Below are positions 16,617 to 55,350 of a stretch of 64,000 nucleotides of DNA, in pieces. The stretch's first letter is position 1. Each line of letters begins with the position of its first letter. The stretch comes from Herbaspirillum rubrisubalbicans (GTDB lineage Bacteria > Pseudomonadota > Gammaproteobacteria > Burkholderiales > Burkholderiaceae_D): positions 1,364,001-1,428,000 of the forward strand of contig NZ_CP024996.1 of the NCBI RefSeq assembly GCF_003719195.1, read 5' to 3'. Made by a program: the position numbers and the translations under genes. The notes beneath the pieces are model-generated. The model saw only the letters and a list, made by a program, of their open reading frames with translations, was not told the origin of the DNA and made no database searches.

Positions 16617-17396
16617 TCATTCCGTCAGGAACTGCCGCACCGCCTGCGTAAAGGCACGCGGTTGCTGCTGGTTGGAGATGTGGGCGGCATCGAACTCCAC
16701 ATACAGCGCGCCGGGAATGGTGGCTCGCATGAATTGCGCATCGGCCGGCGGCGTCGGCAGGTCGCCGCTGCCGGCAATCACCAGCGTGGGCGCGCGGATG
16801 CCGGCAATCGCTTCCCGCAGGTCATTGTCGCGCACCGCTGCACAGGCGCCGGCATAGCCTTCAGCCGGGGTAGCCAGCAGCATGGCCGTCAGCGCTTGCA
16901 CCTGCTGTGGATTGTGCTCGGCATACTCGGGCGTGAGCCAGCGCGAGACCACCGCCGGCGCGATGGCTGGCAGGCCGTCACGCAGGACGGTGTCGATGCG
17001 GCTGTTCCAGGCCTCGGCCGTGCCGATCTTGGCGCCGGTGTTGCAGAGGATGAGTTTGTTCACGCGCTCCGGGTGATGCACCGCCAGCCACATGAAGGTG
17101 CTGCCACCCATGGACAGACCGCAGAAGTGCGCTTGCGCAATCTCCAACTGGTCGAGCAGGGCGATCACGTCGCTGCCCAGCTGGGCGATGGTGTAGGGGC
17201 CGGGCGTGACCTCGGACTGGCCGTGGCCGCGCGTGTCGTAGCGCAGCACGCGGAAGTGCTGGCTCAGTTCGGCAATCTGCGGCTCCCACATCGCCAGCGA
17301 GGTGCCCAGCGAATTGGACAGCACCAGCACCGGCAAGGCCGCATCGCCATCGAGCTGGTAATGCAATTTGATTCCGTTCAGTGTTGCAAATGGCAT
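16617..17396 (-). CDS. catD: 3-oxoadipate enol-lactonase (alpha/beta hydrolase)
   Basis: 259 residues. It hydrolyses beta-ketoadipate enol-lactone to beta-ketoadipate, the last step of the ortho branch encoded here. The nucleophile elbow GLSMGGS, the oxyanion region SLGTSLAMW and DTRGHGQSE, and the C-terminal AAHISN with the catalytic His are all present. I start at the ATG at 17396, which has AAGGA seven bases upstream, rather than 24 bases further out. The gene follows catC on the same strand, forming a catC-catD unit. It is also known as pcaD; catD is chosen from its neighbours. Confidence 0.92.
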   Translation of the reverse strand: MPFATLNGIKLHYQLDGDAALPVLVLSNSLGTSLAMWEPQIAELSQHFRVLRYDTRGHGQSEVTPGPYTIAQLGSDVIALLDQLEIAQAHFCGLSMGGSTFMWLAVHHPERVNKLILCNTGAKIGTAEAWNSRIDTVLRDGLPAIAPAVVSRWLTPEYAEHNPQQVQALTAMLLATPAEGYAGACAAVRDNDLREAIAGIRAPTLVIAGSGDLPTPPADAQFMRATIPGALYVEFDAAHISNQQQPRAFTQAVRQFLTE

Positions 17397-17473
17397 GGAG
17401 AAATCCTTGGCGCGCCCCACGCGACGGTGGGTACGGGCATGTGTGAATCAAAAAGCGTCAGATGCCCCGGTCA

Positions 17474-17761
17474 TCAGCCAATCTGGGCAATGGCCGAGGG
17501 ATGCTGGGTCAGCGGTGTGACCGAAATGGTCATGAACGGATAGAGCGGCAGCGCCGAGAGGAGGTTGTGCAACTCATCGTTGCCGGAGACGTTGAAGATG
17601 CTCACGTTGGCATACTGCCCGACCACGCGCCACAGATCGCGCCACTTGCCTTCGCGCTGCAGTTTTTGCGACATCTCCTTTTCATCCTTCTTCAACTGAT
17701 CGGCCACGGCCTTGTCGAGCGTGGCGGGAATGTTGACCTGCATTTGAACCATGAACAGCAT
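17474..17761 (-). CDS. catC: Muconolactone delta-isomerase
   Basis: 95 residues, the usual size of the family. It converts muconolactone to 3-oxoadipate enol-lactone. The start MLFMVQMQVNIP, the segment EGKWRDLWRVVGQYANVSIF and the ending LPLYPFMTISVTPLTQHPSA match CatC closely. The ATG at 17761 has GGAG eight bases upstream, and an in-frame ATG 57 bases earlier is rejected. It is separated from catR by 131 bases that hold a promoter and a palindrome, so it is probably transcribed with catD and controlled separately from catBA. Confidence 0.95.
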   Translation of the reverse strand: MLFMVQMQVNIPATLDKAVADQLKKDEKEMSQKLQREGKWRDLWRVVGQYANVSIFNVSGNDELHNLLSALPLYPFMTISVTPLTQHPSAIAQIG

Positions 17762-17800
17762 GATGTGATCTCCATTGTCGTTATGGGTGGGGTCTTGCAT

Positions 17801-17817
17801 TGTTCGATAAGCGAACA
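17801..17817. promoter_or_regulatory. IclR/PcaR-like palindrome in the catC leader
   Basis: TGTTCG-ATAAG-CGAACA is a perfect inverted repeat with a 5-base centre. Its core GTTCGATAAGCGAAC differs at only two positions from the PcaR site I remember for pseudomonads (GTTCGATAATCGCAC). It lies just downstream of the predicted catC transcription start. A related half-site, ATTCGCAC, occurs near 17828. The PcaR link is from memory and inference. Confidence 0.5.
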
Positions 17818-17840
17818 TACATCCTTTATTCGCACAACCG

Positions 17841-17892: not shown

Positions 17893-18846
17893 TTAATCGC
17901 GCCGTTCCGGCATCGGAAAAGCAGCCGCCGGGAAGGAGCTGGTCTCGATGTCCAGCCAGGCTGGATGCTCGGCATACATGTCGGCCACCAGTTGCTTGAC
18001 CGCATCGATGTACCAGGCATTGTCGTTGATGCGGTGGGTCAGGATGATGGGCGAGGTGGCGCGGGTGTCATCGATGAGCCGGTAGTGCAGGTCATTACGC
18101 AGCCGCGCCGAGGCCGGAATCAGGCATAGGCCCGACTCGGCCGCCACCAGGCCCAGTGCGGTCTGGATCTCGCGCACTTCATGCACTTCGGCCGGCTGGA
18201 TGTCCTGGTCGTTGAGCAGGCTCAGGATGTGGTCGGCAAAGCTGGGGCGGGGCTCCTTGGGGTAGACGATCAGCTTTTGCCCATGCAATTCTTTGAGGCT
18301 CACACGCTGCTGGCTGGTCGCCAGCGGGAAGGCCGGCGGGATGGCCAGCACCAGTCTTTCCTCACGCAGCACGGTGCGCGCCACGGTGGCGTCATTGCCG
18401 CGGATGCGGCCAAAACCGATGTCGATGCGGCCCGACTTGAGGGCGGCAAATTGCTGCATCGAAGTTAGCTCCAGCAGTTGGATATCGACCTCGGGGTAAT
18501 GCTGGCGCAGCTTGCGCACCAGCATCGGCAAGCCGCCATAGAGGGTCGAGGCGACAAAGCCGATGGACAGCGTCTGGCGCTGGTTCAGGCCGATCTGCTG
18601 GGTGGCATGCTTCAACTGGTCCAGGCGGTTGAGGATCTGCAGGGCCTGTTCATAGAACATCCGGCCAGCTTCGGTCAGGCGCAGCGGGCGGCTGTTGCGC
18701 AGGATCAACTGCACGCCCAGCTCCTCTTCCAGCAACTGGATCTGGCGACTCAAGGGTGGCTGGGCGATATGCAACTGCTCGGAGGCACGCGTGAAGTTGC
18801 GCGTATTGGCCACCGCGACGAAGTACTTTAGTTGTCTGATATCCAT
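17893..18846 (-). CDS. catR: LysR-type regulator of the cat/ben genes (CatR/CatM/BenM group)
   Basis: 317 residues. The N-terminal winged helix-turn-helix MDIRQLKYFVAVANTRNFTRASEQLHIAQPP is almost diagnostic of the CatR/CatM/BenM/ClcR group, which sense cis,cis-muconate or benzoate. The effector domain follows (about residues 90-300). It is divergent from catB across an AT-rich spacer, the classic arrangement for this regulator. It most likely activates catB-catA and perhaps the ben genes downstream. Ligand choice (muconate, benzoate or both) cannot be read here. The ATG at 18846 lacks a strong ribosome site. Confidence 0.85.
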   Translation of the reverse strand: MDIRQLKYFVAVANTRNFTRASEQLHIAQPPLSRQIQLLEEELGVQLILRNSRPLRLTEAGRMFYEQALQILNRLDQLKHATQQIGLNQRQTLSIGFVASTLYGGLPMLVRKLRQHYPEVDIQLLELTSMQQFAALKSGRIDIGFGRIRGNDATVARTVLREERLVLAIPPAFPLATSQQRVSLKELHGQKLIVYPKEPRPSFADHILSLLNDQDIQPAEVHEVREIQTALGLVAAESGLCLIPASARLRNDLHYRLIDDTRATSPIILTHRINDNAWYIDAVKQLVADMYAEHPAWLDIETSSFPAAAFPMPERRD

Positions 18847-18981
18847 GGTCAGAGGTCATATCTCTTAAAAATAAAAGAATTCTAATCCTTTGATTTTTAT
18901 AGAAATGCTTTTTAACTATATAAAAAAGGTATGGGACTAGACGTATTTAGTGTTGGCAATGGCAGGGCTTCCGGGTGTTCA
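18847..18981. promoter_or_regulatory. AT-rich divergent catR-catB control region
   Basis: The spacer is much richer in A and T than its surroundings, as is usual for LysR-controlled promoters. ATAT-N7-GTAT at 18918-18932 is one base from the ATAC-N7-GTAT site known for BenM/CatM. TTGATT (18890) - 17 bases - TAACTA is a possible catB promoter, but the AT-rich stretch allows other pairings. Confidence 0.5.
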
Positions 18982-20193
18982 ATGCGTCACATGGATACCT
19001 CACAACACCTCCACACTGCGGCGGCCCCGGCTCCCGCTCTCATCGAGCGGGTCGAGACCTTCCTGGTCGACCTGCCGACCATCCGGCCCCATCAATTGTC
19101 CATGGCGACGATGAATGGGCAGACCCTGATGCTGGTGCGCCTGTACTGTTCGGATGGCAGCGTCGGCGTGGGCGAGGGCACCACCATCGGTGGCCTGGCC
19201 TACGGTGCCGAATCGCCCGAGGGCATGAAGCTGGCCATCGATACCTATTTCGCGCCGCTGCTGCTGGGCGCGGATGCCAGCCTGATCCCGGCTATCATGG
19301 CGCGCCTGAACAAGGCCATTCAAGACAACCGCTTCGCCAAGTGCGCCATCGAGACCGCGTTGTTCGATGCGCTGGGTCAGCGCACCGGGCTGCCGGTGTC
19401 GCAACTGCTGGGCGGTCGGGCCCGCGAAAGCCTGCCGATTGCCTGGACCCTGGCCTCGGGCGACACCGCCAAGGATATCGACGAAGCCGAACGGATGCTG
19501 GCCGAGCGTCGCCACAATATCTTCAAGCTCAAGATCGGTCGGCGCGAGGTGGAGGCCGATGTGGCCCACGTGGCCGCCATCAAGAAGGCGCTGGGTGAGC
19601 GCGGCGCGGTGCGGGTCGATGTGAACATGGCCTGGAGCGAGCTGGAAGCCCAGCGCGGCCTGGCCGGCCTGGTCGATGCCGGTTGCGAACTGGTGGAGCA
19701 GCCAGTGGCCTCGGTGCAGGCCTTGGCGCGTCTGAAGGGCAAGCACCCCATTGCCGTCATGGCCGATGAATCGCTGACCGGCCCGGCCTCGGCCTTTGCC
19801 CTGGCGCGTATCGGTGGAGCGGACGTGTTTGCCATCAAGATCGAACAATCGGGTGGCCTGCGTGCGGCCCAGCAGGTGGCGGCCATTGGCGATGCTGCCG
19901 GCATCGAGCTCTACGGCGGCACCATGCTCGAAGGCGCCATCGGTACCATCGCTTCGGCCCATGCCTTTGCCACCTTCCGTGAATTGCAGTGGGGCACCGA
20001 GTTGTTCGGGCCGCTGCTGCTGACCGAGGAAATCCTGGCCACGCCCTTGCAGTACAAGGATTTCCAACTGGCCATTCCGAACGGCCCGGGGCTTGGCATC
20101 GTGCTCGATGAAGAGCGTGTGCAATACTTCCGACGCGACCGCAAGCAAGGGGCAACAATAACAGCAGTGAGGCCGGCCCAACTGGCCGGATAA
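18982..20193 (+). CDS. catB: Muconate cycloisomerase
   Basis: About 403 residues; enolase-superfamily enzyme that converts cis,cis-muconate to muconolactone. The start region VETFLVDLPTIRPHQLSMATMN is typical of CatB. The catalytic KxK is in FKLKIGRREV, metal ligands are in VRVDVNMAW and the LVEQPV/MADESLTG strands, and a second Lys is in FAIKIEQSGG. Three in-frame ATGs are possible (18931, 18982, 18991). The first lies within the presumed promoter and none has a strong ribosome site, so the N-terminus is uncertain by up to 20 residues. catA follows after 51 bases. Confidence 0.93.
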   Translation: MRHMDTSQHLHTAAAPAPALIERVETFLVDLPTIRPHQLSMATMNGQTLMLVRLYCSDGSVGVGEGTTIGGLAYGAESPEGMKLAIDTYFAPLLLGADASLIPAIMARLNKAIQDNRFAKCAIETALFDALGQRTGLPVSQLLGGRARESLPIAWTLASGDTAKDIDEAERMLAERRHNIFKLKIGRREVEADVAHVAAIKKALGERGAVRVDVNMAWSELEAQRGLAGLVDAGCELVEQPVASVQALARLKGKHPIAVMADESLTGPASAFALARIGGADVFAIKIEQSGGLRAAQQVAAIGDAAGIELYGGTMLEGAIGTIASAHAFATFRELQWGTELFGPLLLTEEILATPLQYKDFQLAIPNGPGLGIVLDEERVQYFRRDRKQGATITAVRPAQLAG

Positions 20194-20244: not shown

Positions 20245-21180
20245 ATGGCAGCCAAGATTTTCAGCACCCCCGAAGTACAAGACTTCCTGCGTCTGGCCAG
20301 CGGCCTGGACACCGAAGGCGGTAACCCGCGCGTCAAGCAGATCGTGCATCGCATCCTGTCGGACCTGTTCAAGACCATCGAAGACCTGGAAATCACCTCG
20401 GACGAATACTGGGCCGGCGTGGCCTACATCAACCGCCTGGGCACTGCCAGCGAAGCTGGCTTGCTCTCGCCAGGCCTGGGCCTGGACCGCTTCCTGGACA
20501 TGCGCATGGATGCCGAGGATGCCGCCCTGGGCATCACCGGCGGTACCCCGCGTACCATCGAAGGCCCGCTGTATGTGGCTGGTGCCCCGGTGGAACAAGG
20601 CTTCGCCCGTCTGGACGATGGTAGCGACAAGAACGGCCACACCATCATCATGCACGGCACCATCTACGGCGCCGATGGCAAGCCCATGCCGGGTGCCCAG
20701 GTCGAAGTCTGGCACGCCAATACCAAGGGCTTCTATTCGCACTTCGATCCGACCGGCGAGCAAAAGCCCTTCAACATGCGCCGCACCATCATCACCGATG
20801 CCCAGGGTCGCTACAAATTCCGCAGCATCATGCCGGCTGCCTATGGCTGCCCGCCGGCCGGCCCCACCCAGGCCCTGCTGAACCAGTTGGGTCGTCACGG
20901 CAACCGTCCGGCGCACATCCACTTCTTCGTCACCGCCGACGGGCATCGCAAGCTGACTACCCAGATCAACATCGATGGCGATCCTCTGATCTATGACGAC
21001 TTCGCCTACGCCACCCGCGAAGGTCTGGTGCCGCCGCTGGTCGAGCGCACCGATGCGGCCAGCATCAAGGCCGAAGGCCTGGAAGGTCCGTTTGCCGAGA
21101 TCGTCTTCGACATGACGCTCACGTCGCTGGTCAACGGTGCCGACAACCAGATCGTCGACCGCCCGCGTCTGGCTGCCTGA
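20245..21180 (+). CDS. catA: Catechol 1,2-dioxygenase (intradiol)
   Basis: 311 residues. It opens catechol to cis,cis-muconate with a non-haem Fe(III). The ligands fall at Tyr164 (KGFYSHFD), Tyr200 (PAAYGCP), His224 and His226 (RPAHIHFF), the same numbers used for the well-studied Acinetobacter enzyme. The N-terminal helical dimerisation domain occupies about residues 1-100. AAGGAGACTCAAC precedes the ATG. This is the point where the benzoate and indole-acetate routes of the window meet. Confidence 0.97.
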   Translation: MAAKIFSTPEVQDFLRLASGLDTEGGNPRVKQIVHRILSDLFKTIEDLEITSDEYWAGVAYINRLGTASEAGLLSPGLGLDRFLDMRMDAEDAALGITGGTPRTIEGPLYVAGAPVEQGFARLDDGSDKNGHTIIMHGTIYGADGKPMPGAQVEVWHANTKGFYSHFDPTGEQKPFNMRRTIITDAQGRYKFRSIMPAAYGCPPAGPTQALLNQLGRHGNRPAHIHFFVTADGHRKLTTQINIDGDPLIYDDFAYATREGLVPPLVERTDAASIKAEGLEGPFAEIVFDMTLTSLVNGADNQIVDRPRLAA

Positions 21181-21203: not shown

Positions 21204-21256
21204 GCCCCACCCCCGCTGAATGAATTGCCGCGCTGGCTGCCATCGCGGGGGGCGGG
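21204..21256 (+). other. GC-rich inverted repeat between catA and benA
   Basis: CCCCACCCCCGC (21205-21216) pairs imperfectly (two mismatches) with GCGGGGGGCGGG (21245-21256) around a loop of 28 bases, just upstream of the benA ribosome site. It may attenuate read-through from catA or stabilise the mRNA end. The long loop makes this tentative. Confidence 0.3.
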
Positions 21257-21278
21257 TTGCACCCTGGAGAAACCGCAC

Positions 21279-22652
21279 ATGAACACCATCGCCGCCGACA
21301 AGTACCAAGACGTCGAACGCCTGCTGGAGAGCGCCCTGGACGAAGATGCCACCAATGGCATCTTCCGCTGCCGCCGCGACATCTTCACCAATGAAGCATT
21401 GTTCGAACTGGAGATGAAGCACCTGTTCGAATCGAACTGGGTCTATCTGGCCCACGAAAGCCAGATTCCCGAGATCAACGATTACTACACCACCTGGATC
21501 GGTCGCCAGCCGGTGGTGGTCACCCGCGACAAGACCGGCGAGCTGCACGCGGTCATCAATGCCTGCGCCCACAAGGGCGCCATGCTGTGCCGTCGCAAGC
21601 ATGGCAACAAGAGCAGCTTCACCTGTCCGTTCCATGGCTGGACCTTTTCCAACAGCGGCAAGCTGTTGAAGGTCAAGGATGAGAAGACCACCGAATACCC
21701 GGTCTCCTTCAACCAGAATGGCTCGCACGACCTGACCCGGGTAGCGCGCTTCCAGAGCTATCGCGGCTTCCTCTTCGGTAGCCTGTCGGAAGACGTACTG
21801 CCGCTGGAAGAGTATCTGGGTGAGACCCGCGTGATCATCGACCAGATCGTCGATCAAGCTCCCAACGGCTTGGAAGTCTTGCGCGGCAACTCCAGCTACC
21901 TCTACGACGGCAACTGGAAGATGCAGATGGAAAACGGCTGCGATGGCTATCACGTCAGCAGCGTGCACTGGAACTATGCGGCCACCATGGGCCGCCGCAA
22001 GGAAGGCGGCACCAAGGCCACCGATGCCAACAATTGGAGCAAGGCGGTGGCCGGCGTGTATGGCTTCGAGAATGGCCATATCCTGTTGTGGACCAATACC
22101 CTGAACCCGGAAGTGCGCCCGATCTGGAACCAGCGCGAAGAATTGGCGGCCCGCGTGGGCCAGGCCCGCGCCGACACCATCGTGGCGCAGACCCGCAACC
22201 TGTGCCTGTATCCCAACGTGTTCCTGATGGATCAGTTCGGCACCCAGATCCGCGTGGCGCGCCCGATCAGCGTGGACAAGACCGAGATCAGCATCTTCTG
22301 CTTCGGTCCCAAGGGCGAGAGCGCTGAAGACCGCCGCGTGCGTATTCGCCAGTATGAAGATTTCTTTAACGTCTCCGGCATGGGTACCGCCGATGATCTC
22401 GAAGAGTTCCGCGCCTGCCAGGCGGGTTATGCCGGTTCGGCCGTGCGCTGGAATGACATGAGTCGCGGGGCGCCGCTGTGGAAGCAAGGACCGGATGAGA
22501 ATGCGAAGAAAATGGGCATGAATCCCATACTCAGTGGCGAGCGCAGCGAAGACGAAGGCCTGTTCGTCTGCCAGCACCACTACTGGACCGAGCAGATGCG
22601 CCAGGCCGTCAAGAAGGAACGCGCCGCCGCCGGGCAAGGAGCACAGCAATGA
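21279..22652 (+). CDS. benA: Benzoate 1,2-dioxygenase, alpha (Rieske oxygenase) subunit
   Basis: 457 residues. With BenB and BenC it dihydroxylates benzoate to the cis-diol. The Rieske motif is C96-x-H98 ... C116-x2-H119 (CAHKGAMLC, CPFHGW), and the mononuclear iron site is marked by DGYHVSSVHWNY. I use the ATG at 21279 preceded by GGAG; an in-frame upstream ATG adds 18 residues of no likely value. The stop overlaps benB by 4 bases. IacC in this window is a separate, more distant Rieske subunit. Confidence 0.96.
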   Translation: MNTIAADKYQDVERLLESALDEDATNGIFRCRRDIFTNEALFELEMKHLFESNWVYLAHESQIPEINDYYTTWIGRQPVVVTRDKTGELHAVINACAHKGAMLCRRKHGNKSSFTCPFHGWTFSNSGKLLKVKDEKTTEYPVSFNQNGSHDLTRVARFQSYRGFLFGSLSEDVLPLEEYLGETRVIIDQIVDQAPNGLEVLRGNSSYLYDGNWKMQMENGCDGYHVSSVHWNYAATMGRRKEGGTKATDANNWSKAVAGVYGFENGHILLWTNTLNPEVRPIWNQREELAARVGQARADTIVAQTRNLCLYPNVFLMDQFGTQIRVARPISVDKTEISIFCFGPKGESAEDRRVRIRQYEDFFNVSGMGTADDLEEFRACQAGYAGSAVRWNDMSRGAPLWKQGPDENAKKMGMNPILSGERSEDEGLFVCQHHYWTEQMRQAVKKERAAAGQGAQQ

Positions 22653-23163: not shown

Positions 23164-24189
23164 ATGAGCAGCTATCGCATTGCCCTCAACTTCGAGGATG
23201 GGGTCACCCGCATCATCGATTGCGGGGCCAAGGAAAAAGTACTGGACGCGGCCTTTCGCCAGCGTATCAACCTGCCCATGGATTGTTCCGATGGCGTGTG
23301 CGGCACCTGCAAGTGCCGTGCCGAGAGTGGCCAGTACGATCTGGGCGACGACTACATCGAGGAGGCGTTGAACAGCGAGGAAGCCGAGGCCGGTATGGTG
23401 CTGACCTGCCAGATGGTGCCGCAGTCGGATTGCGTCATTGCCGTGCCGGTCGCTTCCACTGCCTGCAAGACCGGCAGCGCCAAGTTCAGTGGCAAGGTGG
23501 CCGCCGTCACCGCCTTTGGCGAGGCGGCTTTCGAGCTGGTGCTGGAGGTGGGGGCCGATGCGCCGGTCTTCCTGCCGGGCCAATACGTCAACATCGGCGT
23601 ACCCGGCAGCGGCCAGCAGCGTGCCTATTCCTTCAGCTCACCCTCGGGGGCGGCGCGCATGAGCTTTCTCATCAAGAACGTGCCGGGCGGCCTGATGAGC
23701 GCTTGGTTGGCGGGCGCCCGTGCCGGTGCAGCGCTGGAGTTGACCGGCCCCCTGGGCAGCTTCTACCTGCGCCCGGTCACCCGGCCGGTGCTGATGCTGG
23801 CCGGTGGTACCGGTCTGGCCCCGTTCCTGTCGATGCTGGAAGAACTGCTGCGCCAGGGGGTGAGCCAGCCGGTGCATATGATCTATGGCGTCACCCGCGA
23901 CCAGGACCTGGTCCTGGTGGAGCGCCTGGAAGCGCTGGCGCAACGTCTGCCGGGCTTCAGTTTCACCACCTGCGTGGCCGACCCCGCCACCGCCCATCCG
24001 CGTCAGGGTTACGTGACCCAGCACATGCCGGCCGAGGTGCTGCATGAGGGCGCGGTGGATGTCTACCTGTGCGGCCCGCCGCCAATGGTGGAGGCGGTGC
24101 AGAAGCACTTCCAGTCCCAGGGCATCACCCCGGCCAGCTTCCATTACGAGAAGTTCGTCACCAGTCAGCCGGTGGCGGTGGCAGCATGA
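23164..24189 (+). CDS. benC: Benzoate dioxygenase reductase (ferredoxin-FAD-NADH)
   Basis: 341 residues. The N-terminal plant-type [2Fe-2S] domain shows CSDGVCGTCKC plus a fourth Cys in MVLTCQM. The FAD-binding motif RAYSFSS is near residue 157, and the NAD region has LAGGTGLAPFLSML and YLCGPPPMV. It passes electrons from NADH to BenAB. The cluster domain is N-terminal here, whereas in IacF it is C-terminal, so the two reductases of the window belong to different classes. It overlaps benD by 4 bases. Confidence 0.96.
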   Translation: MSSYRIALNFEDGVTRIIDCGAKEKVLDAAFRQRINLPMDCSDGVCGTCKCRAESGQYDLGDDYIEEALNSEEAEAGMVLTCQMVPQSDCVIAVPVASTACKTGSAKFSGKVAAVTAFGEAAFELVLEVGADAPVFLPGQYVNIGVPGSGQQRAYSFSSPSGAARMSFLIKNVPGGLMSAWLAGARAGAALELTGPLGSFYLRPVTRPVLMLAGGTGLAPFLSMLEELLRQGVSQPVHMIYGVTRDQDLVLVERLEALAQRLPGFSFTTCVADPATAHPRQGYVTQHMPAEVLHEGAVDVYLCGPPPMVEAVQKHFQSQGITPASFHYEKFVTSQPVAVAA

Positions 24190-24974
24190 GCGGCCCCGCC
24201 GTGCGCGCCCGTTTTGCCGGCAAGGTAGCGGTGGTCACCGGCGCTGCCCAGGGCATCCTGCGCGGCGTGGCGTTGGGCATCGCGGCCGAAGGTGGCCAGG
24301 TGCTGCTGGTGGACCGTGCCGATTTCATCGATGAAGTCGCGGCCCAAGCCGAGGCCGGACGGGGCAGCGGCTTTGTCGCCGATCTGGAAACCTATGCCGG
24401 TGCGCAGGCGGCCATGGCGCAGGCCATCGCGCGCTATGGCCGCATCGATATCCTCATCAATGGCGTGGGCGGGGCCATCCGTATGCGGCCCTATGACCAG
24501 TTCGAGGCGGCCCAGATCGATGCCGAGATCCGCCGCTCGCTCATGCCCACGCTCTATGGCTGTCACGCCGTGCTGCCGTATCTGCTGCGCCAGGGGAGCG
24601 GCACTATCGTCAACGTCTCCTCCAATGCCACGCGCGGTATCCGCCGCGTGCCGTATTCGGCGGCCAAGGGTGGGGTCAATGCCATGACCACGGCACTGGC
24701 CATGGAGTATGGCGAGCAGGGCATCCGCGTGGTGGCCACTGCACCGGGTGGTACCGAGGCTCCGCCGCGCCGGGTGCCGCGCAATGCCGACGGCGACAGT
24801 GCCCAGGAACAGGCGTGGATGCAGCAAGCCGTGCAGCAGGTCACCAGCTCCACCTTCTTCAAACGCTATGCCACGCTGGAAGAGCAGATCGCGCCCATCC
24901 TCTTTCTCGCCTCCGATGAGGCCAGCTATATCACCGGTACGGTATTGCCGGTGGCGGCGGGTGATAACGGCTGA
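24186..24974 (+). CDS. benD: Benzoate cis-diol dehydrogenase (SDR)
   Basis: 262 residues; oxidises and decarboxylates the benzoate cis-diol to catechol with NAD. Short-chain dehydrogenase features are VVTGAAQGI (cofactor loop), NGVGG, SSNA and the catalytic YSAAK. The ATG at 24186 overlaps the benC stop. Being last of the benABCD set, it closes the route to catechol, which CatA encoded about 3 kb upstream then opens. Confidence 0.95.
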   Translation: MSGPAVRARFAGKVAVVTGAAQGILRGVALGIAAEGGQVLLVDRADFIDEVAAQAEAGRGSGFVADLETYAGAQAAMAQAIARYGRIDILINGVGGAIRMRPYDQFEAAQIDAEIRRSLMPTLYGCHAVLPYLLRQGSGTIVNVSSNATRGIRRVPYSAAKGGVNAMTTALAMEYGEQGIRVVATAPGGTEAPPRRVPRNADGDSAQEQAWMQQAVQQVTSSTFFKRYATLEEQIAPILFLASDEASYITGTVLPVAAGDNG

Positions 24975-25039: not shown

Positions 25040-25456
25040 ATGTCCGAGCGCCAGGCCATCATTCCCAAGGGAATGGAAGACGTCTACGACAAGATCGGTT
25101 ATGCCCCCGGCGTGCTGGTGGGTGAGGTGCTGTATGTATCCGGCCAGATCGGCCGCGGCCCCGACATGCAACTGGTGGAGCCGCGCGAAGCCCAGATCGT
25201 GCAAGCCTTCGAGAACCTCAAGCAGGTGCTGGAGAGCGCTGGCGGCAAGCTGGAGGACATCGTCGACCTGACCACCTTCCACACCGACATGCGTGACCTG
25301 CCGCTGTTCATCAAGGTGCGCAACCGTTACCTGAGCGCCTATCCGCTGCCGGCCTGGACCGCCATCGGCGCCCACATGCTGGGCGGGGCGCCCGGCTACA
25401 TCATCGAGATCAAGGCCGTGGCGCATCTGCGCAAGAAGGAGGCGTCCCAGACCTGA
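25040..25456 (+). CDS. RidA/YjgF/TdcF-family protein
   Basis: 138 residues. GYAPGVLVGEVLYVSGQIGR, LTTFHTDM and the C-terminal PGYIIEIKAVAHL are RidA-fold signatures. RidA proteins deaminate reactive enamines/imines, and relatives in aromatic pathways act on carbamate or imine intermediates. It sits between benD (65 bases upstream) and benK with a good AAGGAACCCCC ribosome site. The benzoate pathway has no obvious enamine, so its substrate here is unknown. Confidence 0.85.
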   Translation: MSERQAIIPKGMEDVYDKIGYAPGVLVGEVLYVSGQIGRGPDMQLVEPREAQIVQAFENLKQVLESAGGKLEDIVDLTTFHTDMRDLPLFIKVRNRYLSAYPLPAWTAIGAHMLGGAPGYIIEIKAVAHLRKKEASQT

Positions 25457-25522
25457 GCCTGATTGCAGCACCACATACCCATAACAACGACAGAACATGA
25501 CCGACATAACGGAGGAGACCCC

Positions 25523-26884
25523 ATGAAAAACCAGGAAGTCAGCCAGATCATCGATGGCGCAGGCTTTACCCGATTCCACTGGATGGTGATGTGCCTATGC
25601 GCATTGCTGCTGGTGTTCGATGGCTATGACCTTTTTATCTACGGCGCTGTCTTGCCGGTGCTGATGAAGCACTGGAGCCTGTCGCCGGTACAGGCCGGTG
25701 CGCTGGGTAGCTATGCGCTGTTCGGCATGATGTTCGGCGCCTTCATCTTCGGCCCGCTGGCCGACCGCATCGGTCGCAAGAAGGGCGTGGCGATCAGCTT
25801 CGTGCTCTTTAGCGTTTCCACTTTCCTAAGCGGTTTTTCCAGCACGCCCAACGAGTTCGGCGTCTATCGCTTCCTGGCCGGTCTCGGTTGCGGCGGTCTC
25901 ATGCCCAATGCCGTGGCGCTGATGAATGAATATGCGCCCAAGCGCCTGCGCAGCACCCTGGTGGCCATCATGTTCAGCGGCTATTCGCTGGGTGGCGTGC
26001 TGTGTGCCGGCCTGGGGATCTGGATGTTGCCCAATTTCGGCTGGCAATCGATGTTCTTCGCCGCCGCCGTGCCGCTGGTGCTGCTGCCGCTGATCCTGTG
26101 GAAGCTGCCGGAATCGGTCGGCTTCCTGCTGCGTGCCGGCAGGCAGGAGCAGGCCCCCGCCATGCTGGCCCAGGTCGCACCGCACCTGCGTATCGACGCC
26201 GATACCCAACTGGTGCAAGCCGATGCCAAGGGGGCAGGCGCACCGATGCTGGACCTGTTCAAGCAGGATCGCCCGGTGGGTACGCTGATGATCTGGATTG
26301 CCTTCTTCTGCTGCCTGTTGATGGTCTATGCGCTCGGCTCCTGGCTGCCCAAGCTCATGGCCAGTGCCGGCTACAGCCTGGGTTCTTCGCTGTCCTTCCT
26401 GCTGGCGCTCAACTTCGGCGGCGTGGTCGGCGCCATCGGTGGCGGCTGGCTGGGCGATCGCTTCACCCTGCCCAAGGTGGTGGTGAGTTTCTTTACCGTG
26501 GGCACGGTAGCCATTGCGCTATTGGGCTTCAATAGCCCGACCCCGGTGCTGTACCTGCTCATCATCGTGGCTGGCGCGACCACCATCGGTACCCAGATCC
26601 TGCTGTACGCCAACACCGCCCAGTTCTATCCGCTGGCCAGCCGCTCCACCGGTCTTGGCTGGGCCTCCGGTGTGGGGCGCTCGGGTGCCATTGTCGGTCC
26701 CTTGCTGGGTGGCGCGTTGATGGCGGCGGCCCTGCCGCTGAAGATGAACTTCCTGGTCTTTGCCATCCCCGGCCTGGTGGCGGCGCTGGCCATGGGCATC
26801 TTCATGCTGCGTTACCGTCATGCCCGTCCGGTGACTCCTGCGGCGCCCAGCGTCACGGCCACGCCGGTGTCGCGCAGCGTTTAA
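25523..26884 (+). CDS. benK: MFS benzoate/aromatic acid transporter, AAHS family
   Basis: 453 residues with twelve predicted membrane spans. The N-terminal FDGYDLFIYGAVLPV and the loop GPLADRIGRKKG are hallmarks of the aromatic acid:H+ symporter family (BenK, PcaK). GGAGGAGACCCC precedes the ATG at 25523. It lies between the ben catabolic genes and benE, giving two candidate benzoate importers side by side. The exact substrate cannot be proven from sequence. Confidence 0.9.
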   Translation: MKNQEVSQIIDGAGFTRFHWMVMCLCALLLVFDGYDLFIYGAVLPVLMKHWSLSPVQAGALGSYALFGMMFGAFIFGPLADRIGRKKGVAISFVLFSVSTFLSGFSSTPNEFGVYRFLAGLGCGGLMPNAVALMNEYAPKRLRSTLVAIMFSGYSLGGVLCAGLGIWMLPNFGWQSMFFAAAVPLVLLPLILWKLPESVGFLLRAGRQEQAPAMLAQVAPHLRIDADTQLVQADAKGAGAPMLDLFKQDRPVGTLMIWIAFFCCLLMVYALGSWLPKLMASAGYSLGSSLSFLLALNFGGVVGAIGGGWLGDRFTLPKVVVSFFTVGTVAIALLGFNSPTPVLYLLIIVAGATTIGTQILLYANTAQFYPLASRSTGLGWASGVGRSGAIVGPLLGGALMAAALPLKMNFLVFAIPGLVAALAMGIFMLRYRHARPVTPAAPSVTATPVSRSV

Positions 26885-26907: not shown

Positions 26908-26950
26908 CGGCGCCTGCGGTGGACTTCCACCCGGGCGCCGGGCCTTTTGT
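26908..26950 (+). terminator. Rho-independent terminator after benK
   Basis: CGGCGCC ... GGCGCCG form the outer stem, with GGTGGA ... TCCACC nested inside. The sequence GGCCTTTTGT follows. This is one of the strongest hairpins of the window and suggests that benE is served at least partly by another promoter. Confidence 0.75.
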
Positions 26951-27000
26951 GTCATTTGTGCCATCTCAGCCATCTCAGACGTATCAGCAAGGAACGATTC

Positions 27001-41847: not shown

Positions 41848-41876
41848 ATTCTAAAAGTCGCCTTAAAATAGATCAA
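41848..41876 (-). promoter_or_regulatory. iacH: Predicted sigma-70 promoter of the iacHCDF operon
   Basis: On the minus strand TTGATC (41876-41871), 17 bases, TAGAAT (41853-41848). The -35 lies inside the 14-base element AGATCAAATTGATG, so a regulator bound there would contact or block RNA polymerase. Confidence 0.6.
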
Positions 41877-41883
41877 ATTGATG
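41870..41883. promoter_or_regulatory. LysR-type box AGATCAAATTGATG (copy 1)
   Basis: Core ATCAA-A-TTGAT is a perfect inverted repeat containing the T-N11-A type symmetry of LysR boxes. The same 14 bases recur at 44217-44230 in front of the porin gene. The likely binder is the LysR protein encoded from 41972. Confidence 0.6.
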
Positions 41884-44398: not shown

Positions 44399-45976
44399 TT
44401 AGTTGTGGCGTTCGGCCAACGGCAGCGTGAAGCAGAAGCGGGTACCACGCGCCTGGGCTGCTGTTTCATGGCTTACCTCGCCAGGCTGCGCCCAGATATC
44501 GCCGCGATGGCGCGCGATGATGTTCTTGCACAGCGCAAGCCCGATACCATTGCCGCTGACCTTGGAAGAAAAGAAGCCGTCGAAGAGTCGTTCGCGGTGC
44601 CCGGCATCGATACCGCGCCCTTCATCGGCCACGCTCAACAAGGCATGGTCGCCGGCGCGTCGGGTAGTGATGCGCACATGCCGCGCCCCTTCCGGGAAAT
44701 CCATCATCTCTTCGATGGCATTGAAGGCCAGATTGAGGATCACCTGGCCGATCAAGACCTTCTCGCAACTGACCACCAGCGGCTCGGCACAGGGCAGGAA
44801 ATGCAGGTGGACCTTACCCTCGGCGGCCTTCATTTCGATGAACCAGCGCACGTCTTGCAGCACCGCATTGAGGTCGATGAGGCCTTCGCTCTGCTCCAGC
44901 CGCACCACGTATTCGCGCACGCTCTTGATGATGGCCGCGGCGTGATCGACCTGGCGCCCGGCACTCTCCAGCCCCCATACGATCTGCCCGGCCTGCTCGC
45001 GCAAGGCTTCGCTCTGTTGGAGACGCAATACCGATCCCTCCAGGAAATTGCGGATTGCCGCCAGCGGCTGCGACAGCTCGTGCGCAATGGCGGTAGCCAT
45101 CTCGCCCATGGCGTTGTGGCGCGCCAGGTATTCCAGCGAGGCCTGGTCGCGGCGGCGTGCTTCCTCGGCTTCGACCTGGTCGGTGATGTCGTGGAAGTGC
45201 AGCAGGTGACCCTTGAGGTCGTTCTCGATTTCGATATAGCGGCACACCGCATGGTGCCAGCGCACCAGACCATCCTTGCGCAGGATCTGGTAGCGCAACG
45301 GGAAGCTGATCGCATCCGGCAAGGCCAGGGTCAGCAATTCCAGTAGTTCGTCACGCGCCTCGGGCAGACATTGCTCGACGAAATTCTTGGGCGGATTCTG
45401 GCCGGGGCGCACGCCCAGCAGCTTGCGTCCGGCATCGCTCAGGTATTCGATGCCGCCATCGGCGCGCAGCACCGCCACGCCTTCGTCGGAGTCCTGCATG
45501 AATTCCTTGAGACGGCTTTCCAGTTTCTTCATCTCGCGCCGTATCTGTTCCTCGCGCGCAATATCGCGGAACTGCACCATGATGACGTCGCGCTCGCTCA
45601 GGGGCACCAGGGTGGCTACCGCCTCGGACATGATTTCGTCGCCATTCTTGGCGCGGTAGCACCACTCCACCATGTTGCTGCCGTGAAGCACCGCATCGTG
45701 CAACCACTTGCGACCGATCTCGCGGCGGTATTCGTGCGATTGCCGGCTCATGTCCGGCGCCTTCAAGGGCAGCAGTTCTTCCAGCGTGAATCCCAGCACC
45801 TGGCAGGCAGACGGATTAGCCCAGAGGATGGACTTGGTCTGGGCGTCGTGCAGGATGATGCACATGGGCAGCGCATCCATCATGCGGCGGAAATCATCGA
45901 GGCCGAAGCGGATGGCGTCGTCCTCGGGCATTGCGGCGGGTTGTTCTGGCATCGCTATCTCTGTGGTGGAATCCAT
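44399..45976 (-). CDS. Soluble PAS-domain histidine kinase
   Basis: 525 residues and no membrane span. Two PAS domains (about 25-145 and 150-275, the second followed by a PAC-like HFHDITDQVEAE) precede the dimerisation region with phospho-acceptor His299 (AIAHELSQPLAAIRN). An HATPase domain follows, with NLAFNAIEEMM (N box), DEGRGID and GNGIGLALC (G boxes). This FixL/StyS/NodV-like cytosolic design suits sensing of an intracellular aromatic. It is divergent from iacA and the likely partner of the FixJ-type regulator encoded at 35985. Confidence 0.9.
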   Translation of the reverse strand: MDSTTEIAMPEQPAAMPEDDAIRFGLDDFRRMMDALPMCIILHDAQTKSILWANPSACQVLGFTLEELLPLKAPDMSRQSHEYRREIGRKWLHDAVLHGSNMVEWCYRAKNGDEIMSEAVATLVPLSERDVIMVQFRDIAREEQIRREMKKLESRLKEFMQDSDEGVAVLRADGGIEYLSDAGRKLLGVRPGQNPPKNFVEQCLPEARDELLELLTLALPDAISFPLRYQILRKDGLVRWHHAVCRYIEIENDLKGHLLHFHDITDQVEAEEARRRDQASLEYLARHNAMGEMATAIAHELSQPLAAIRNFLEGSVLRLQQSEALREQAGQIVWGLESAGRQVDHAAAIIKSVREYVVRLEQSEGLIDLNAVLQDVRWFIEMKAAEGKVHLHFLPCAEPLVVSCEKVLIGQVILNLAFNAIEEMMDFPEGARHVRITTRRAGDHALLSVADEGRGIDAGHRERLFDGFFSSKVSGNGIGLALCKNIIARHRGDIWAQPGEVSHETAAQARGTRFCFTLPLAERHN

Positions 45977-47316: not shown

Positions 47317-47688
47317 ATGAGCCAAGTCCCAAGCAATGATAAAGAACCGCTGCGCGTCCTCTTCTGCGTCGGCGTGACGCAAAACTTCTTCGACCTGCCG
47401 GCCACCGAAACCGGTCCCGTATGGCAGGCCTATGGCCAGATGATGACGGCCCTGGCCACCATGGACGGCATCAAGGTCTTGGGCACCATGGATGACGACC
47501 GCCTGATGGTGGGCAAGTCCGACGCTGCCCCCTGGACCTTCTACATCATGGCCGATGTGGCCGACCTCGATACGGTGGTGGCTGCCTGCAATCTGTTCCG
47601 TACCACCATGGTGGGGGAACATCGCCTGTGGAAGTACGGCAAGATCGAAGCCCGTGTAGGTCGCGCCCTGATCATCCAGGGTGGCTGA
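47317..47688 (+). CDS. iacB: Small conserved protein of the iac cluster, IacB
   Basis: 123 residues. EPLRVLFCVGVTQNFFDLP, IKVLGTMDDDRLMVG and FYIMADVADLDTVVAACNLFR suggest a small alpha/beta dimeric-barrel-like protein. No catalytic motif is obvious. Between iacA and iacE it matches the position and size of IacB, whose role is unresolved in the literature I know. The ATG at 47317 has CGGAG upstream; iacE starts two bases after its stop. Confidence 0.75.
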   Translation: MSQVPSNDKEPLRVLFCVGVTQNFFDLPATETGPVWQAYGQMMTALATMDGIKVLGTMDDDRLMVGKSDAAPWTFYIMADVADLDTVVAACNLFRTTMVGEHRLWKYGKIEARVGRALIIQGG

Positions 47689-47690
47689 CC

Positions 47691-48434
47691 ATGGACAAGA
47701 AGATTGCCCTGGTCACCGGCGCCGCACGCGGTCTCGGTGAAAGCATCGCGCGCAAGATGCACGCCGCCGGCTACAAGGTGGCGCTGTCCGACATTGATCT
47801 TGAACAGGTCTCGGCGGTGGCCGCCAGTCTGGACGCCAGCGGTGCCACGGCCATGCCGCTGGCGCTGGATGTGCGCCGCAAGCCCGATTTCATCGCCGCC
47901 TGCGACGCCATCGAATTGCGCTGGGGTGGCGCCACGGTGCTGGTCAACAATGCCGGTCGCTCACGCGTGGCCGCGCTCATGGAGATCACTCCCGAGGAGT
48001 GGGATGAGGTCACCGCCATCAACATGAAGGGCACATTTCTTGCATGTCAGGTGTTCGGCAAACGCTTCGCCGAACGGGGCTACGGTCGCATCATCAACGT
48101 CGCCTCGCTGGCCGGCCAGAACGGGGGCACGGCCACCGGCGCCCACTATGCCGCTGCCAAGGGTGCGGTGCTGACCTTGACCAAGGTCTTTGCGCGCGAA
48201 CTGGCCGGTTCCGGTGTCACGGTCAACGCCATCTCGCCCGGTCCGCTGGACTTGCCCATCGTGCGCGAGATCGTACCGGCCGACAAGCTGGCCGCGACCA
48301 TCGCCACCATTCCGGTCAAGACCCTGGGCGCGCCGGATTTCATCGCCGATGCCGTGCTGCTGCTGGCTTCGCCCGATGCCGGTTCGGCTACTGGCGCTTG
48401 CCTGGACATCAATGGCGGTCTGTACATGCGCTGA
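47691..48434 (+). CDS. iacE: Short-chain dehydrogenase, IacE
   Basis: 247 residues. Cofactor loop VTGAARGLGES, NNAGRSRVAA, catalytic region NVASLAGQNGGTATGAHYAAAKGAV (Tyr-x3-Lys) and the ending GACLDINGGLYMR are standard SDR features. In characterised systems IacE acts with IacA to reach dioxindole-3-acetic acid, the substrate of the Rieske enzyme. Two bases separate it from iacB. FabG-like paralogues look alike, so context carries the name. Confidence 0.85.
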   Translation: MDKKIALVTGAARGLGESIARKMHAAGYKVALSDIDLEQVSAVAASLDASGATAMPLALDVRRKPDFIAACDAIELRWGGATVLVNNAGRSRVAALMEITPEEWDEVTAINMKGTFLACQVFGKRFAERGYGRIINVASLAGQNGGTATGAHYAAAKGAVLTLTKVFARELAGSGVTVNAISPGPLDLPIVREIVPADKLAATIATIPVKTLGAPDFIADAVLLLASPDAGSATGACLDINGGLYMR

Positions 48435-53466: not shown

Positions 53467-53487
53467 TTTTTTCTTATATGCCCTGTC

Positions 53488-54537
53488 ATGAGTGACGATT
53501 CCTCCAAGCATCTTGCACCACTGCGCATCTGCATAGCCGGCGCTGGCGCCATCGGCGGCACCCTGGCTGTGCGCCTGTCGGCAGCGGGTCACCAGGTCAG
53601 CGTACTGGCGCGCGGCCAGACCCTGCAAGCCATCCGCGAGCACGGCCTGACGCTGCACGACCTGCATGGCCGCACCCACGCCCGCCCGACGGCAAGTGAG
53701 CTGCCCGAGTTCGGCGAGCAGGACGTCATTTTCCTCTGCGCCAAGAGTCAGGACATGTCAGCCTTGCTGTCCCAGATCGCCCCTCTGGTTGGCGCACAGA
53801 CGGTGGTGATCCCGACCAACAATGGCGTGCCCTGGTGGTATTTCCACCGCGAGGGCGGGCGCTTCGATGGCCAGACCGTCAAGGCGGTCGATCCCGATGG
53901 CGCCTTGTCGCGTGCGGTACCGCTGGCGCAGTTGATCGGCAGCGTGCTTTTCATTACCGCCGAGGTGGAGCGCCCGGGCGTGATCCGCTCCGTCAATCCG
54001 CACTTGATGGTCCTGGGCGAACCTTCCGGCGAGATGAGCGAACGCCTGCTGCGCGTGCGTGCCGCCGTGGAAGCCGCTGGCATCGAAGCACGCGCCACCG
54101 ACCGCATCCGCGACAAGCTGTGGACCAAGATCATTGCCAACATCAGCACCAATCCCTTGTCGGTCATCACACGCGGCACGCTGGAGCAGTTGTATGGACA
54201 GCCGGAGTTGCGCGAGGTGGTCAGCCAGATCATGCGCGAGACGCTGCTGGTGGCCTCCAGCTATGGCGCCCGCGTGGACATCGACCCGCTGACCTTCCTG
54301 CAACTGGGCGAAGCCATGGGCGCCTTCCGCACCTCCATGCTGCAGGACCTGGAACGCGGTCGCCCGCTGGAACTGGCGGCCATCGGCGATGCGGTCCTGG
54401 AAATGGCCGAGCGCTTTGCCATTCCCATGCCGATCACCCGCGCCGTCGTCTCGCTGGCCCGCTTCCGGGGCGAGACGGCGCGCCAGCAGACCGATCAGCA
54501 GACAGCGGCACAGCCGCCAGCGGCGCGGGCTGCCTGA
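53488..54537 (+). CDS. Ketopantoate reductase-like (ApbA/PanE family) dehydrogenase
   Basis: 349 residues. The NADP-binding Rossmann start RICIAGAGAIGGTLAVRL and C-terminal helical domain with DKLWTKIIANISTNPLSVITRGT (the conserved Lys-Asn-x2-Asn-like region) define the PanE superfamily. It is longer than true PanE (about 300) and located 21 bases after the importer, so a catabolic 2-keto or hydroxy acid is a more likely substrate than ketopantoate. It is followed 36 bases later by an aldolase-like gene. No symbol given. Confidence 0.82.
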   Translation: MSDDSSKHLAPLRICIAGAGAIGGTLAVRLSAAGHQVSVLARGQTLQAIREHGLTLHDLHGRTHARPTASELPEFGEQDVIFLCAKSQDMSALLSQIAPLVGAQTVVIPTNNGVPWWYFHREGGRFDGQTVKAVDPDGALSRAVPLAQLIGSVLFITAEVERPGVIRSVNPHLMVLGEPSGEMSERLLRVRAAVEAAGIEARATDRIRDKLWTKIIANISTNPLSVITRGTLEQLYGQPELREVVSQIMRETLLVASSYGARVDIDPLTFLQLGEAMGAFRTSMLQDLERGRPLELAAIGDAVLEMAERFAIPMPITRAVVSLARFRGETARQQTDQQTAAQPPAARAA

Positions 54538-54573
54538 TCGCCTTACCTCATCCACAGGATTCTGGAGTCAGAA

Positions 54574-55350
54574 ATGAACATCATGCAATACAGCTATGAC
54601 GTAGACCAGCCAGCCCACTGCAGCGATCAGGAATGGGCGCTGCGCATCCAGCTGGCGCACTGCTACCGCCTGGTCGATTACCTGGGCTGGACCGAGATGA
54701 TCTTCAACCACATCTCGGTACGGGTGCCCGGCCCCGAGCATCACTACCTAGTCAATCCCTTTGCCCTGAACTACAACGAAGTCACGCCCGCCAACCTGTT
54801 GAAGGTAGGCCTGGACGGTCAGTTGGCCGAAGCATCCGACTACAAGGCCAACCCGGCCGGCTTCGCCCTGCACAGCGCCATCCACGGCGCGCGCGACGAT
54901 CTGCGCTGCGTGATTCACACGCACACCACACCGATCTCGGCCGTGACCATGAAGAAGAGCGGCTTCGAGCATAACGACTTCTACGGCGCGCAACTGTTCG
55001 GGCGCATTGGTTATCACGAGTTCGAAGGTATCACCCTGTTTGCCGAAGAGAAGCAAAGGATGTTGCAGAGCCTGGGCGATAAACACATCCTGGTGCTGCG
55101 CAATCATGGCGTGGCGGTATGCGAGAGCGATATCGAGCGCGCCTTCTTCCTGCTGTGGACGGTGCAGCGCGCCGCCGAGATCCAGGTGGCCGGCCGTGCC
55201 ATGGGCGGCGAGGATGAGCAGCTAGCGGATGGGGTGCGGCAGAAGTGTGCTGACCTGACGCAGCAGTTGATTCGCAATGACGGGTTTGCGGTGATCTTCT
55301 TCGAGGCGATCGTGCGCAAGATGTTGAAGGCGGTTTATCAGGTGCATTGA
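54574..55350 (+). CDS. Class II aldolase/adducin-family protein
   Basis: 258 residues. GWTEMIFNHISVRVPG, the metal-binding CVIHTHTTPIS (two His) and VLRNHGVAV (third His) are family hallmarks; Glu in the SAIHGARDDLR/YHEFEGI region may be catalytic. These Zn enzymes cleave or decarboxylate sugar-phosphate-like or hydroxy-acid substrates. GGAGTCAGAA precedes the ATG. Together with the PanE-like gene it ends the iacA-led transcript; a role in auxin side-chain or related catabolism is a guess. Confidence 0.85.
   Translation: MNIMQYSYDVDQPAHCSDQEWALRIQLAHCYRLVDYLGWTEMIFNHISVRVPGPEHHYLVNPFALNYNEVTPANLLKVGLDGQLAEASDYKANPAGFALHSAIHGARDDLRCVIHTHTTPISAVTMKKSGFEHNDFYGAQLFGRIGYHEFEGITLFAEEKQRMLQSLGDKHILVLRNHGVAVCESDIERAFFLLWTVQRAAEIQVAGRAMGGEDEQLADGVRQKCADLTQQLIRNDGFAVIFFEAIVRKMLKAVYQVH

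Follow-up and report, generated by a model that had tools for sequence, protein, structure and literature searches.

How might Herbaspirillum rubrisubalbicans degrade the auxin indole-3-acetate (IAA) with an iac gene cluster that lacks one of its marker genes? The DNA considered here (the window) is the whole stretch of 64,000 nucleotides at positions 1364001–1428000 of a single-contig 5.6 Mb Herbaspirillum genome (G000). An initial annotation of the window had placed candidates for iacA to iacH, benABCD and catA to catD in one stretch, and curated models, homology to the Pseudomonas sp. Root71 iac locus and gene order show that all of them are present. We read the window as two adjacent catabolic units converging on a single catechol pathway, and we give this reading a probability of about 0.75; that the IAA pathway is split over two loci is a less certain part of it. 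It is based on gene content, homology, one TIGR02439 CatA and one IacC-grade oxygenase from the analysis, and on reaction steps from the literature. The earlier interpretation is mostly right and mostly known. What merits further attention is the loss of iacI from the cluster and its likely substitute at a second locus.

The genes iacA, B, C, D, E, F, G and H all lie between 36844 and 48434. Their region runs in the order response regulator, iacG, iacF, iacD, iacC, iacH, LysR gene, porin gene, PAS kinase gene, iacA, iacB, iacE. Among the model matches of the window proteins there was no Iac-specific NCBIfam model, and the proteins were therefore compared with the Root71 iac locus (L064); IacA to IacH were identified by this homology together with gene order. 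The identities to Root71 range from 56 to 82%. The Root71 contig was equated with the strain of PMC11630574 through the shared name; the part of that paper available to us describes Root71 as one strain whose iac operon rose on IAA, and Pseudomonas strains that consumed IAA completely. The iac genes are as follows (identities are to Root71; ORF, open reading frame; SDR, short-chain dehydrogenase/reductase).

36844..37503, plus strand: iacG, flavin reductase; TIGR02296 226.6 bits, 70% identity
37623..38609, minus strand: iacF, ferredoxin reductase; 62% identity
38627..39157, minus strand: iacD, dioxygenase beta subunit; 60% identity
39133..40419, minus strand: iacC, Rieske dioxygenase alpha subunit; 82% identity, Rieske and iron-site motifs
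40480..41655, minus strand (ORF to 41799, ATG at 41655): iacH, amidase; PF01425, 56% identity
46104..47264, plus strand: iacA, flavin monooxygenase; 67% identity, placed in the IacA tree
47317..47688, plus strand: iacB; 62% identity, alignment of 22 sequences
47691..48434, plus strand (ORF from 47628): iacE, short-chain dehydrogenase; 67% identity, SDR motifs

IacC scored 1005 bits, and the runner-up in its own genome was the benA product of the window with 185.9 bits; the best 120 relatives of IacC listed are 72–100% identical to it. IacA and IacC group with the Iac proteins of other iac loci and not with unrelated oxygenases, the outcome that the initial annotation had named as refuting it. 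The Lys motif and both Ser motifs are kept in IacH, and the SDR motifs are kept in IacE. An iad-type locus without iacA is described for Variovorax (PMC9613470, in the part available), and the presence of IacA sets the window apart from that type. Similar iac sets occur in Acinetobacter, Streptomyces and Klebsiella plasmid stretches, and a Caballeronia stretch holds iacC, D, B, I, H and E only. IacB is predicted with good confidence to adopt a ferredoxin-like fold; structure comparison gave no functional match for it, and the Acinetobacter IacB has no Pfam match.

The gene missing from this set is iacI, and its absence went unnoticed in the initial annotation. It is one marker of the iac type (PMC9613470, as far as the text was available), and its product is a SnoaL_4-type protein in the Acinetobacter, Caballeronia and Klebsiella clusters. 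A tblastn search of the window with five IacI proteins found nothing significant (best E value 0.045, over 10 residues), and the sole IacI-family match of the genome is a divergent protein encoded outside the window, called IacI2 here. When 80 related iac loci were scored with a match above 60 bits, 67 held an iacI-type gene, one of which (L063) was of the I2 type. The 13 loci without it are seven of the nine named Herbaspirillum loci, L062, L084 and L087 (cut short), and the Streptomyces loci L096, L099 and L105. An iacI-less iac type common to Herbaspirillum and Streptomyces was considered and rejected. The Streptomyces plasmid locus has no iacI beside iacC, yet a gene of the iacI family stands farther upstream in it and in other Streptomyces loci, and L096, L099 and L105 come from genomes that each contain one.

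The comparison within the genus suggests how the gene disappeared. The interval between the LysR gene and iacH contains iacI in Herbaspirillum RV1423 and CF444. In the window and in six of seven named relatives, nothing more than a short ORF (34–54 codons) separates the same promoter stretch from iacH, and in L045 the start of iacI is fused in frame to iacH. The iacI-less Herbaspirillum loci form one clade in the IacC tree (support 0.898) with the iacI-bearing Herbaspirillum loci outside it, and a single loss is therefore the simplest reading. Apparently, iacI was deleted once from the cluster, in an ancestor common to the main clade of Herbaspirillum. In the window, the following ORF stands where iacI would be.

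41652..41762, minus strand: 36-codon ORF in place of iacI, overlapping the iacH start; from the comparison of Herbaspirillum loci

Most iacI-less Herbaspirillum loci have a short ORF at this place, in which a proline-rich part varies and the tail is conserved. Over 16 codons of the tail (last six excluded) in nine sequences, the ratio of non-synonymous to synonymous differences (pN/pS) was 0.73 in frame versus 1.27 and 1.19 in the two other frames, and the last codons overlap the likely ribosome site of iacH. From these comparisons, the ORF is unlikely to be a new protein that took the place of iacI.

The divergent IacI2 gene belongs to a second locus (G000:C1:1634000-1653900) about 240 kb from iacC. 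There, near 1.64 Mb, an IacA-like gene (52% identity), iacA2, and the IacI-family gene lie about 3 kb apart. The operon-like run has the order iacA2, NMT1-type binding protein, ATPase, permease, iacI2, alpha/beta hydrolase. IacI2 scored 121.7 bits, compared with 168–183 bits for the four in-cluster IacI proteins of Herbaspirillum. It was found in 12 of the 13 iac-bearing Herbaspirillum genomes without a match to in-cluster iacI, in one of the four with in-cluster iacI, and in none of the 17 without iac. Fisher tests gave 0.022 (12/13 versus 1/4) and 5e-6 (13/17 versus 0/17), both values being too small because the genomes are related. IacI2 was also considered as a moved copy of iacI, and this was rejected. 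It belongs to a clade separate from the in-cluster Herbaspirillum iacI, which groups with that of Massilia, Janthinobacterium and Pseudoduganella; what happened would thus be replacement by a relative and not relocation.

Two wider surveys connect the IacI family with IacC. A broad IacI model, run on the genomes of the 13 iacI-less loci and on six others, found a match in all 19, the seven iacI-less Herbaspirillum matching through IacI2. Among 398 evenly drawn Pseudomonadota genomes, the IacI family occurred in seven, all of which (G000 included) also had IacC, and IacC occurred in 11. The four with IacC and no IacI-family match are G310, G802, G932 and G963, where iacI may fall below the threshold. 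Three of the seven carry the I2 type (> 270 bits), namely G000, G690 and G943, and in the last two IacC is encoded 7 and 3 kb away, respectively.

The IacI2-type proteins form one clade of 27 rows among 76 sequences (support 100/99), a tree in which long branches meet at the neighbouring group, the Acinetobacter and Klebsiella IacI. The surroundings of the IacI2-type gene were examined in all 13 plasmid records that carry it, and in 11 the gene lies within 18 kb of iacC. In six of them, from Gemmobacter, Sagittula, Martelella, Shinella and two Azospirillum, it stands beside iacG, F, E, D, C, B and A. The amidase gene iacH was recognised in five of these six, so that the Gemmobacter, Sagittula, Martelella, Shinella and Azospirillum lipoferum records hold complete iacABCDEFGH sets. 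At the Novosphingobium aromaticivorans locus all iac genes except iacF were recognised; the neighbours are iacC and iacD in Rhodococcus YL-1 and iacH, C and D in Novosphingobium resinovorum, and in Rhodococcus USK13 iacC is 18 kb away. On the Aminobacter sp. MSH1 plasmid pUSP2 (L142), the IacI2-type gene stands beside genes for an ABC (ATP-binding cassette) transporter, a maleylacetate reductase and an intradiol dioxygenase, and iacC was not recognised.

Two further records join the second operon to the lower iac genes. In Rhizobium rhizoryzae (L145), iacA2, the binding protein, the ATPase and the permease are followed by iacC, D, F, G, I2 and H and then by catR and catB, C, A and D; the frame from iacA2 through the importer to iacI2 is 53–71% identical to the second operon of Herbaspirillum. 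In Paraburkholderia unamae (L063), iacH, C, D and F adjoin iacA2, iacG and iacI2, and another IacC with a canonical iacI is encoded on another contig. The IacA tree places the A2 group (eight rows, one duplicate, 96/80) beside the Paraburkholderia IacA (joint branch 100/100) and not with the IacA of the window. Further IacA-type genes were seen in the genus: G001 (L035, G001:C61) and G004 (L129, G004:C97) each hold one with an IacG-like neighbour, on an IacA branch of its own, and G027 (L132, G027:C188) holds a second one, seen in part.

With these genes, the strain would run the following steps. IacA (with IacG) and IacE/IacB would oxidise IAA to dioxindole-3-acetic acid (DOAA), as described in the available parts of PMC7225977 and PMC9613470. 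IacCDF, together with the amidase IacH, would convert DOAA to catechol; we suppose that IacH acts on an amide arising between the two and so releases ammonia. IacI would act somewhere along the same section, with IacI2 in its stead in the clade of the window. BenABCD would form catechol from benzoate, and CatA, B, C and D would take catechol to 3-oxoadipate, leaving the rest to pcaF-type thiolases, of which two above cut-off are encoded elsewhere in the genome.

The benzoate and catechol genes fill the left part of the window. The order catDC-catR-catBA-benABCD extends from 16617 to 24974, with catD, catC and the LysR gene on the minus strand and catB, catA, benA to benD and the genes for a Rid-family protein, a BenK-like protein and BenE on the plus strand.

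16617..17420, minus strand: catD, 3-oxoadipate enol-lactonase; TIGR02427 333.7 bits, cut-off 255.85
17474..17818, minus strand: catC, muconolactone isomerase; TIGR03221 140.6 bits, cut-off 130.6; PF02426; true start later in the ORF, model match from residue 21 on
17893..18846, minus strand: catR/benM-type LysR regulator; best models BenM 259 and CatM 245.2 bits, both below cut-off
18931..20193, plus strand: catB, muconate cycloisomerase; TIGR02534 548.2 bits, cut-off 334.95
20245..21180, plus strand: catA, catechol 1,2-dioxygenase; TIGR02439 475.4 bits, cut-off 392
21225..22652, plus strand: benA, benzoate dioxygenase alpha subunit; TIGR03229 734.4 bits, cut-off 780.95; anthranilate model 452.8 bits
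22649..23143, plus strand: benB; TIGR03232 242.9 bits, cut-off 225.55
23164..24189, plus strand: benC; NF040810 549.8 bits, cut-off 430
24186..24974, plus strand: benD; NF040811 423.4 bits, cut-off 380
25040..25456, plus strand: Rid-family protein; TIGR00004 57.6 bits, below cut-off
25463..26884, plus strand: benK-like aromatic acid/H+ symporter; TIGR00895 384.9 bits, cut-off 418.55
26947..28170, plus strand: benE, benzoate/H+ symporter; TIGR00843 448.7 bits, cut-off 203.4

CatA, CatB, CatC and CatD all exceed their curated cut-offs, which bears out the complete ortho-cleavage set of the initial annotation; BenB, BenC and BenD do so as well. The benA product is 77–79% identical to BenA-like proteins in ten other genomes. 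In proteobacterial ben-cat clusters, benABCD stands beside catA and catB with a BenM/CatM-like LysR gene, and the unit in the window shows no notable difference from this.

The TIGR02439 kind of catechol dioxygenase was searched for in 34 Herbaspirillum genomes (E ≤ 1e-60) and found in 17; G000 has exactly one, the catA of the window, and H. frisingense GSF30 (locus L043), a strain of the same clade, has two. Since there is a single such gene, the IAA and benzoate routes should meet at this CatA, in line with the initial annotation. Orthologues of IacA (≥ 78% identity) and IacC (≥ 81%) are likewise present in 17 of the 34 genomes, and in three of these 17, namely G004, G027 (63% complete) and G032, no TIGR02439 match was found at this threshold. 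Among the matches listed, benA appears in at least 11 of the 17 (182–196 bits, each beside catA). It shares a contig with iacC, 16–45 kb apart, in at least seven (G000, G008, G011, G019, G024, G025 and G028), and lies on a separate contig in G012, G013, G018 and G031, again among the matches listed. Outside the genus, the genomes of 37 of the 71 non-Herbaspirillum loci were examined for BenA; 28 had it, five on the iacC contig, and two (Pseudomonas umsongensis and Pseudomonas jessenii) within 65 kb of iacC. In the flanks (≤ 10 kb) of the 80 iac loci, catA was found in 20 and benA in none.

To call auxin and benzoate catabolism joined, as first proposed, says too much: both lie in the same stretch as separate units, with 7.8 kb of other genes between the end of benE (28170) and the iac response regulator gene (35985), and three of the 17 iac-bearing Herbaspirillum genomes gave no TIGR02439 match, as noted above. 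The co-location had also been called notable. Linkage of iac and cat is already published for Pseudomonas putida 1290 (PMC6624763) and, in the available part of PMC11676955, for LB400, PsJN, Acinetobacter baumannii and Enterobacter soli; the closeness seen here is therefore ordinary, a further example that adds little. Among the titles listed in a literature search, none is on iac genes or IAA degradation in Herbaspirillum. PMC8733462, judged by its title and the start of its abstract, is about tryptophan metabolism in wheat roots and H. seropedicae, and PMC11373566 and PMC9543091 supplied general background.

It is somewhat short of an even chance that ben-cat and iac lie near each other merely by where they happen to sit in the genome, without functional meaning. 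The low number of linked genomes outside the genus, the genes between the two units and the variable spacing within the genus (16–45 kb) favour accident, whereas the seven or more Herbaspirillum genomes with both units on one contig and the lack of a second TIGR02439 catA in G000 speak for a connection; shared ancestry alone could explain the former. Another possibility is that the locus carries IAA only as far as DOAA, so that auxin would be quenched and not used as carbon. The absence of iacI from the window is an argument for this, as is the involvement of iacCDF and possibly iacI in the conversion of DOAA to catechol (PMC9613470, in part). We regard it as improbable: the IacC and IacH motifs are kept and IacC is 93–98% identical across the congeners without in-cluster iacI, so that the lower half of the pathway looks to be under selection.

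From its distribution we infer that IacI2, supplied from the second locus, may replace the lost iacI, a proposal to which we give even odds; that IacI2 does the job would be the most likely reason why iacI could be lost. More tentatively, the genome may hold two auxin or indole intake modules, one with IacA/B/E from the window and one with IacA2, its NMT1-type importer and IacI2 from the second operon, that share one exit (IacCDFH and CatA), the canonical IAA route now being dependent on the second operon. Several observations weigh against these proposals. The Herbaspirillum counts are not independent, most of them being accounted for by a single clade. In G018 (87% complete), iac is present and no IacI-family match was found, its iacI site being out of view because the contig ends within iacH. 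IacI2 is 33–35% identical to canonical IacI and does not have all of the positions that the three IacI of alignment A1 conserve. It has its own partner, IacA2, and may therefore serve the IacA2 route only. The ATCAANTTGAT site of iac promoters was not found in any of the 13 second-locus stretches, iacC was not found near IacI2 in two of the 13 plasmid records (Aminobacter and Novosphingobium EMRT-2), and IacI2-like proteins also occur in Gluconobacter and Acetobacter (genomic context unread). For the benzoate unit, the BenA score is below its curated cut-off, though far above the anthranilate model. IacI may instead be dispensable, with IacA, B, E, C, D, F and H of the window sufficing and IacI2 belonging to the IacA2 route only. 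In the available part of PMC7225977, E. coli cells that carried IacB and IacI left DOAA unconverted, and the function of IacI is not established; the operon-like run of iacI2 with iacA2 and its own importer and the lack of an operator common to both loci fit this explanation too. Against it stand the IacI-family gene kept in 19 of 19 iac-bearing genomes examined, the IacC in seven of seven genomes with the family, and the IacI2 carried by 12 of the 13 iac-bearing Herbaspirillum genomes whose cluster shows no iacI, and we consider it the weaker account beside replacement by IacI2.

The regulators of the locus and the porin are listed below, together with two copies of a palindrome-like sequence.

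35985..36734, minus strand: FixJ/LuxR-type response regulator of the iac locus; PF00072 and PF00196, 59% identity to Root71
41872..41882, no strand: ATCAAATTGAT site, lysR/iacHCDF promoter region; exact match
41972..42901, plus strand: LysR-type regulator of the iac locus; same place in 9/9 named Herbaspirillum loci
43018..44076, minus strand: porin; PF13609
44219..44229, no strand: second ATCAAATTGAT site, upstream of the porin gene; exact match
44399..45976, minus strand: PAS sensor histidine kinase (IacS-type); 58% identity to Root71

With its LysR regulator, PAS kinase and LuxR-type regulator, the window fits the PsJN/Pseudomonas kind of iac cluster; the other kind has MarR. PsJN and several Pseudomonas are known to have IacS and LuxR (PMC11630574), and a LysR is described for PsJN (PMC9613470), both in the parts available. 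No MarR gene was seen among the annotated ORFs of the window. The sequence ATCAAATTGAT occurs twice in the 64 kb. With up to one mismatch 0.9 occurrences are expected, and 24 of 100 shuffles gave two or more, so that the count alone proves nothing. Its position is kept on the iacH side in eight and near the porin in six of the nine named Herbaspirillum loci, and it also occurs in iac loci of Janthinobacterium and Massilia (L048 and L049). It is possibly an operator of the LysR or the LuxR-type regulator. An operator common to the iac locus and the second locus was searched for and not found (13/13 second-locus stretches without ATCAANTTGAT), and common regulation is therefore not indicated; in Herbaspirillum, iacI2 is also not linked to iacC.

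The 7.8 kb between the two units contain a GTPase-like pair, a cytochrome b/MsrP-like pair, a chemoreceptor gene and more. Downstream of iacE follow genes for a Liv-type ABC transporter, a PanE-like reductase and a class II aldolase-family protein (48190–55350), which had been left unnamed.

34331..35878, plus strand: methyl-accepting chemotaxis protein with four-helix-bundle (4HB) sensor domain, between ben and iac; PF12729, PF00672, PF00015
48190..49674, plus strand (ORF bounds, true start later): Liv-type substrate-binding protein; PF13458
49804..53466, plus strand (ORF bounds): LivH, fused LivM-LivG and LivF; same gene order in Acinetobacter
53488..54537, plus strand: PanE-like reductase; NF005089 340.5 bits
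54574..55350, plus strand: class II aldolase-family protein; NF005451 276.3 bits, same gene order in Acinetobacter

The 4HB sensor domain distinguishes the chemoreceptor from PcpI of P. putida 1290, which mediates taxis to IAA, salicylate and benzoate and whose sensor domain is given as 'small unknown' in the available part of PMC9543091. The order of the Liv, PanE-like and aldolase genes is that found after the iac genes on an Acinetobacter plasmid (L024:21102-27750), and the orthologues of the Liv-type binding protein in G031 and G001 are 63 and 66% identical to the Acinetobacter one. The binding-protein gene was seen in the flanks (≤ 10 kb) of eight of the 80 iac loci, all Herbaspirillum. 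The region probably serves the pathway as a module for uptake and side-chain steps.

Among the known systems close to the locus is the iac cluster of P. putida 1290 (PMC6624763), which likewise has catR-catBCA, a chemoreceptor, LysR, a porin-type protein and transport genes near iac. The window differs from it in having no in-cluster iacI and no MarR gene among its annotated ORFs, in its LysR, PAS kinase and LuxR-type regulators, and in the added ben genes and catD. Paraburkholderia xenovorans LB400 and P. phytofirmans PsJN (PMC11676955, in part) have iacF-catCABR-iacRCDT1BIHE and a separate iacT2AG. They share the LysR-type regulator, the iac-cat linkage and the placing of part of the pathway at a second locus, but it is iacT2AG that is split off there and iacI stays in the cluster. 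Pseudomonas sp. Root71 (PMC11630574, in part) has the same genes and the IacS and LuxR two-component regulators; unlike the window it has iacI (198 bits), and ben and cat were not recognised within its 21 kb stretch. The plasmid cluster of R. rhizoryzae shares the iacA2-to-iacI2 frame with the second operon of Herbaspirillum and differs in holding iacC, D, F, G and H inside the cluster with cat beside it; iacB and iacE were not recognised there.

The literature consulted (PMC7225977 and PMC9613470, in the parts available) does not settle how DOAA becomes catechol or what IacI contributes. A clade whose cluster is intact except for the lost iacI, and in which one gene at another locus is the only candidate to stand in for it, is a natural experiment on IacI. 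Such genomes could be misjudged in surveys where iacI next to iacC serves as a marker. If IacI2 did displace iacI, then IacI would be required for the pathway and yet be exchangeable between distant subfamilies.

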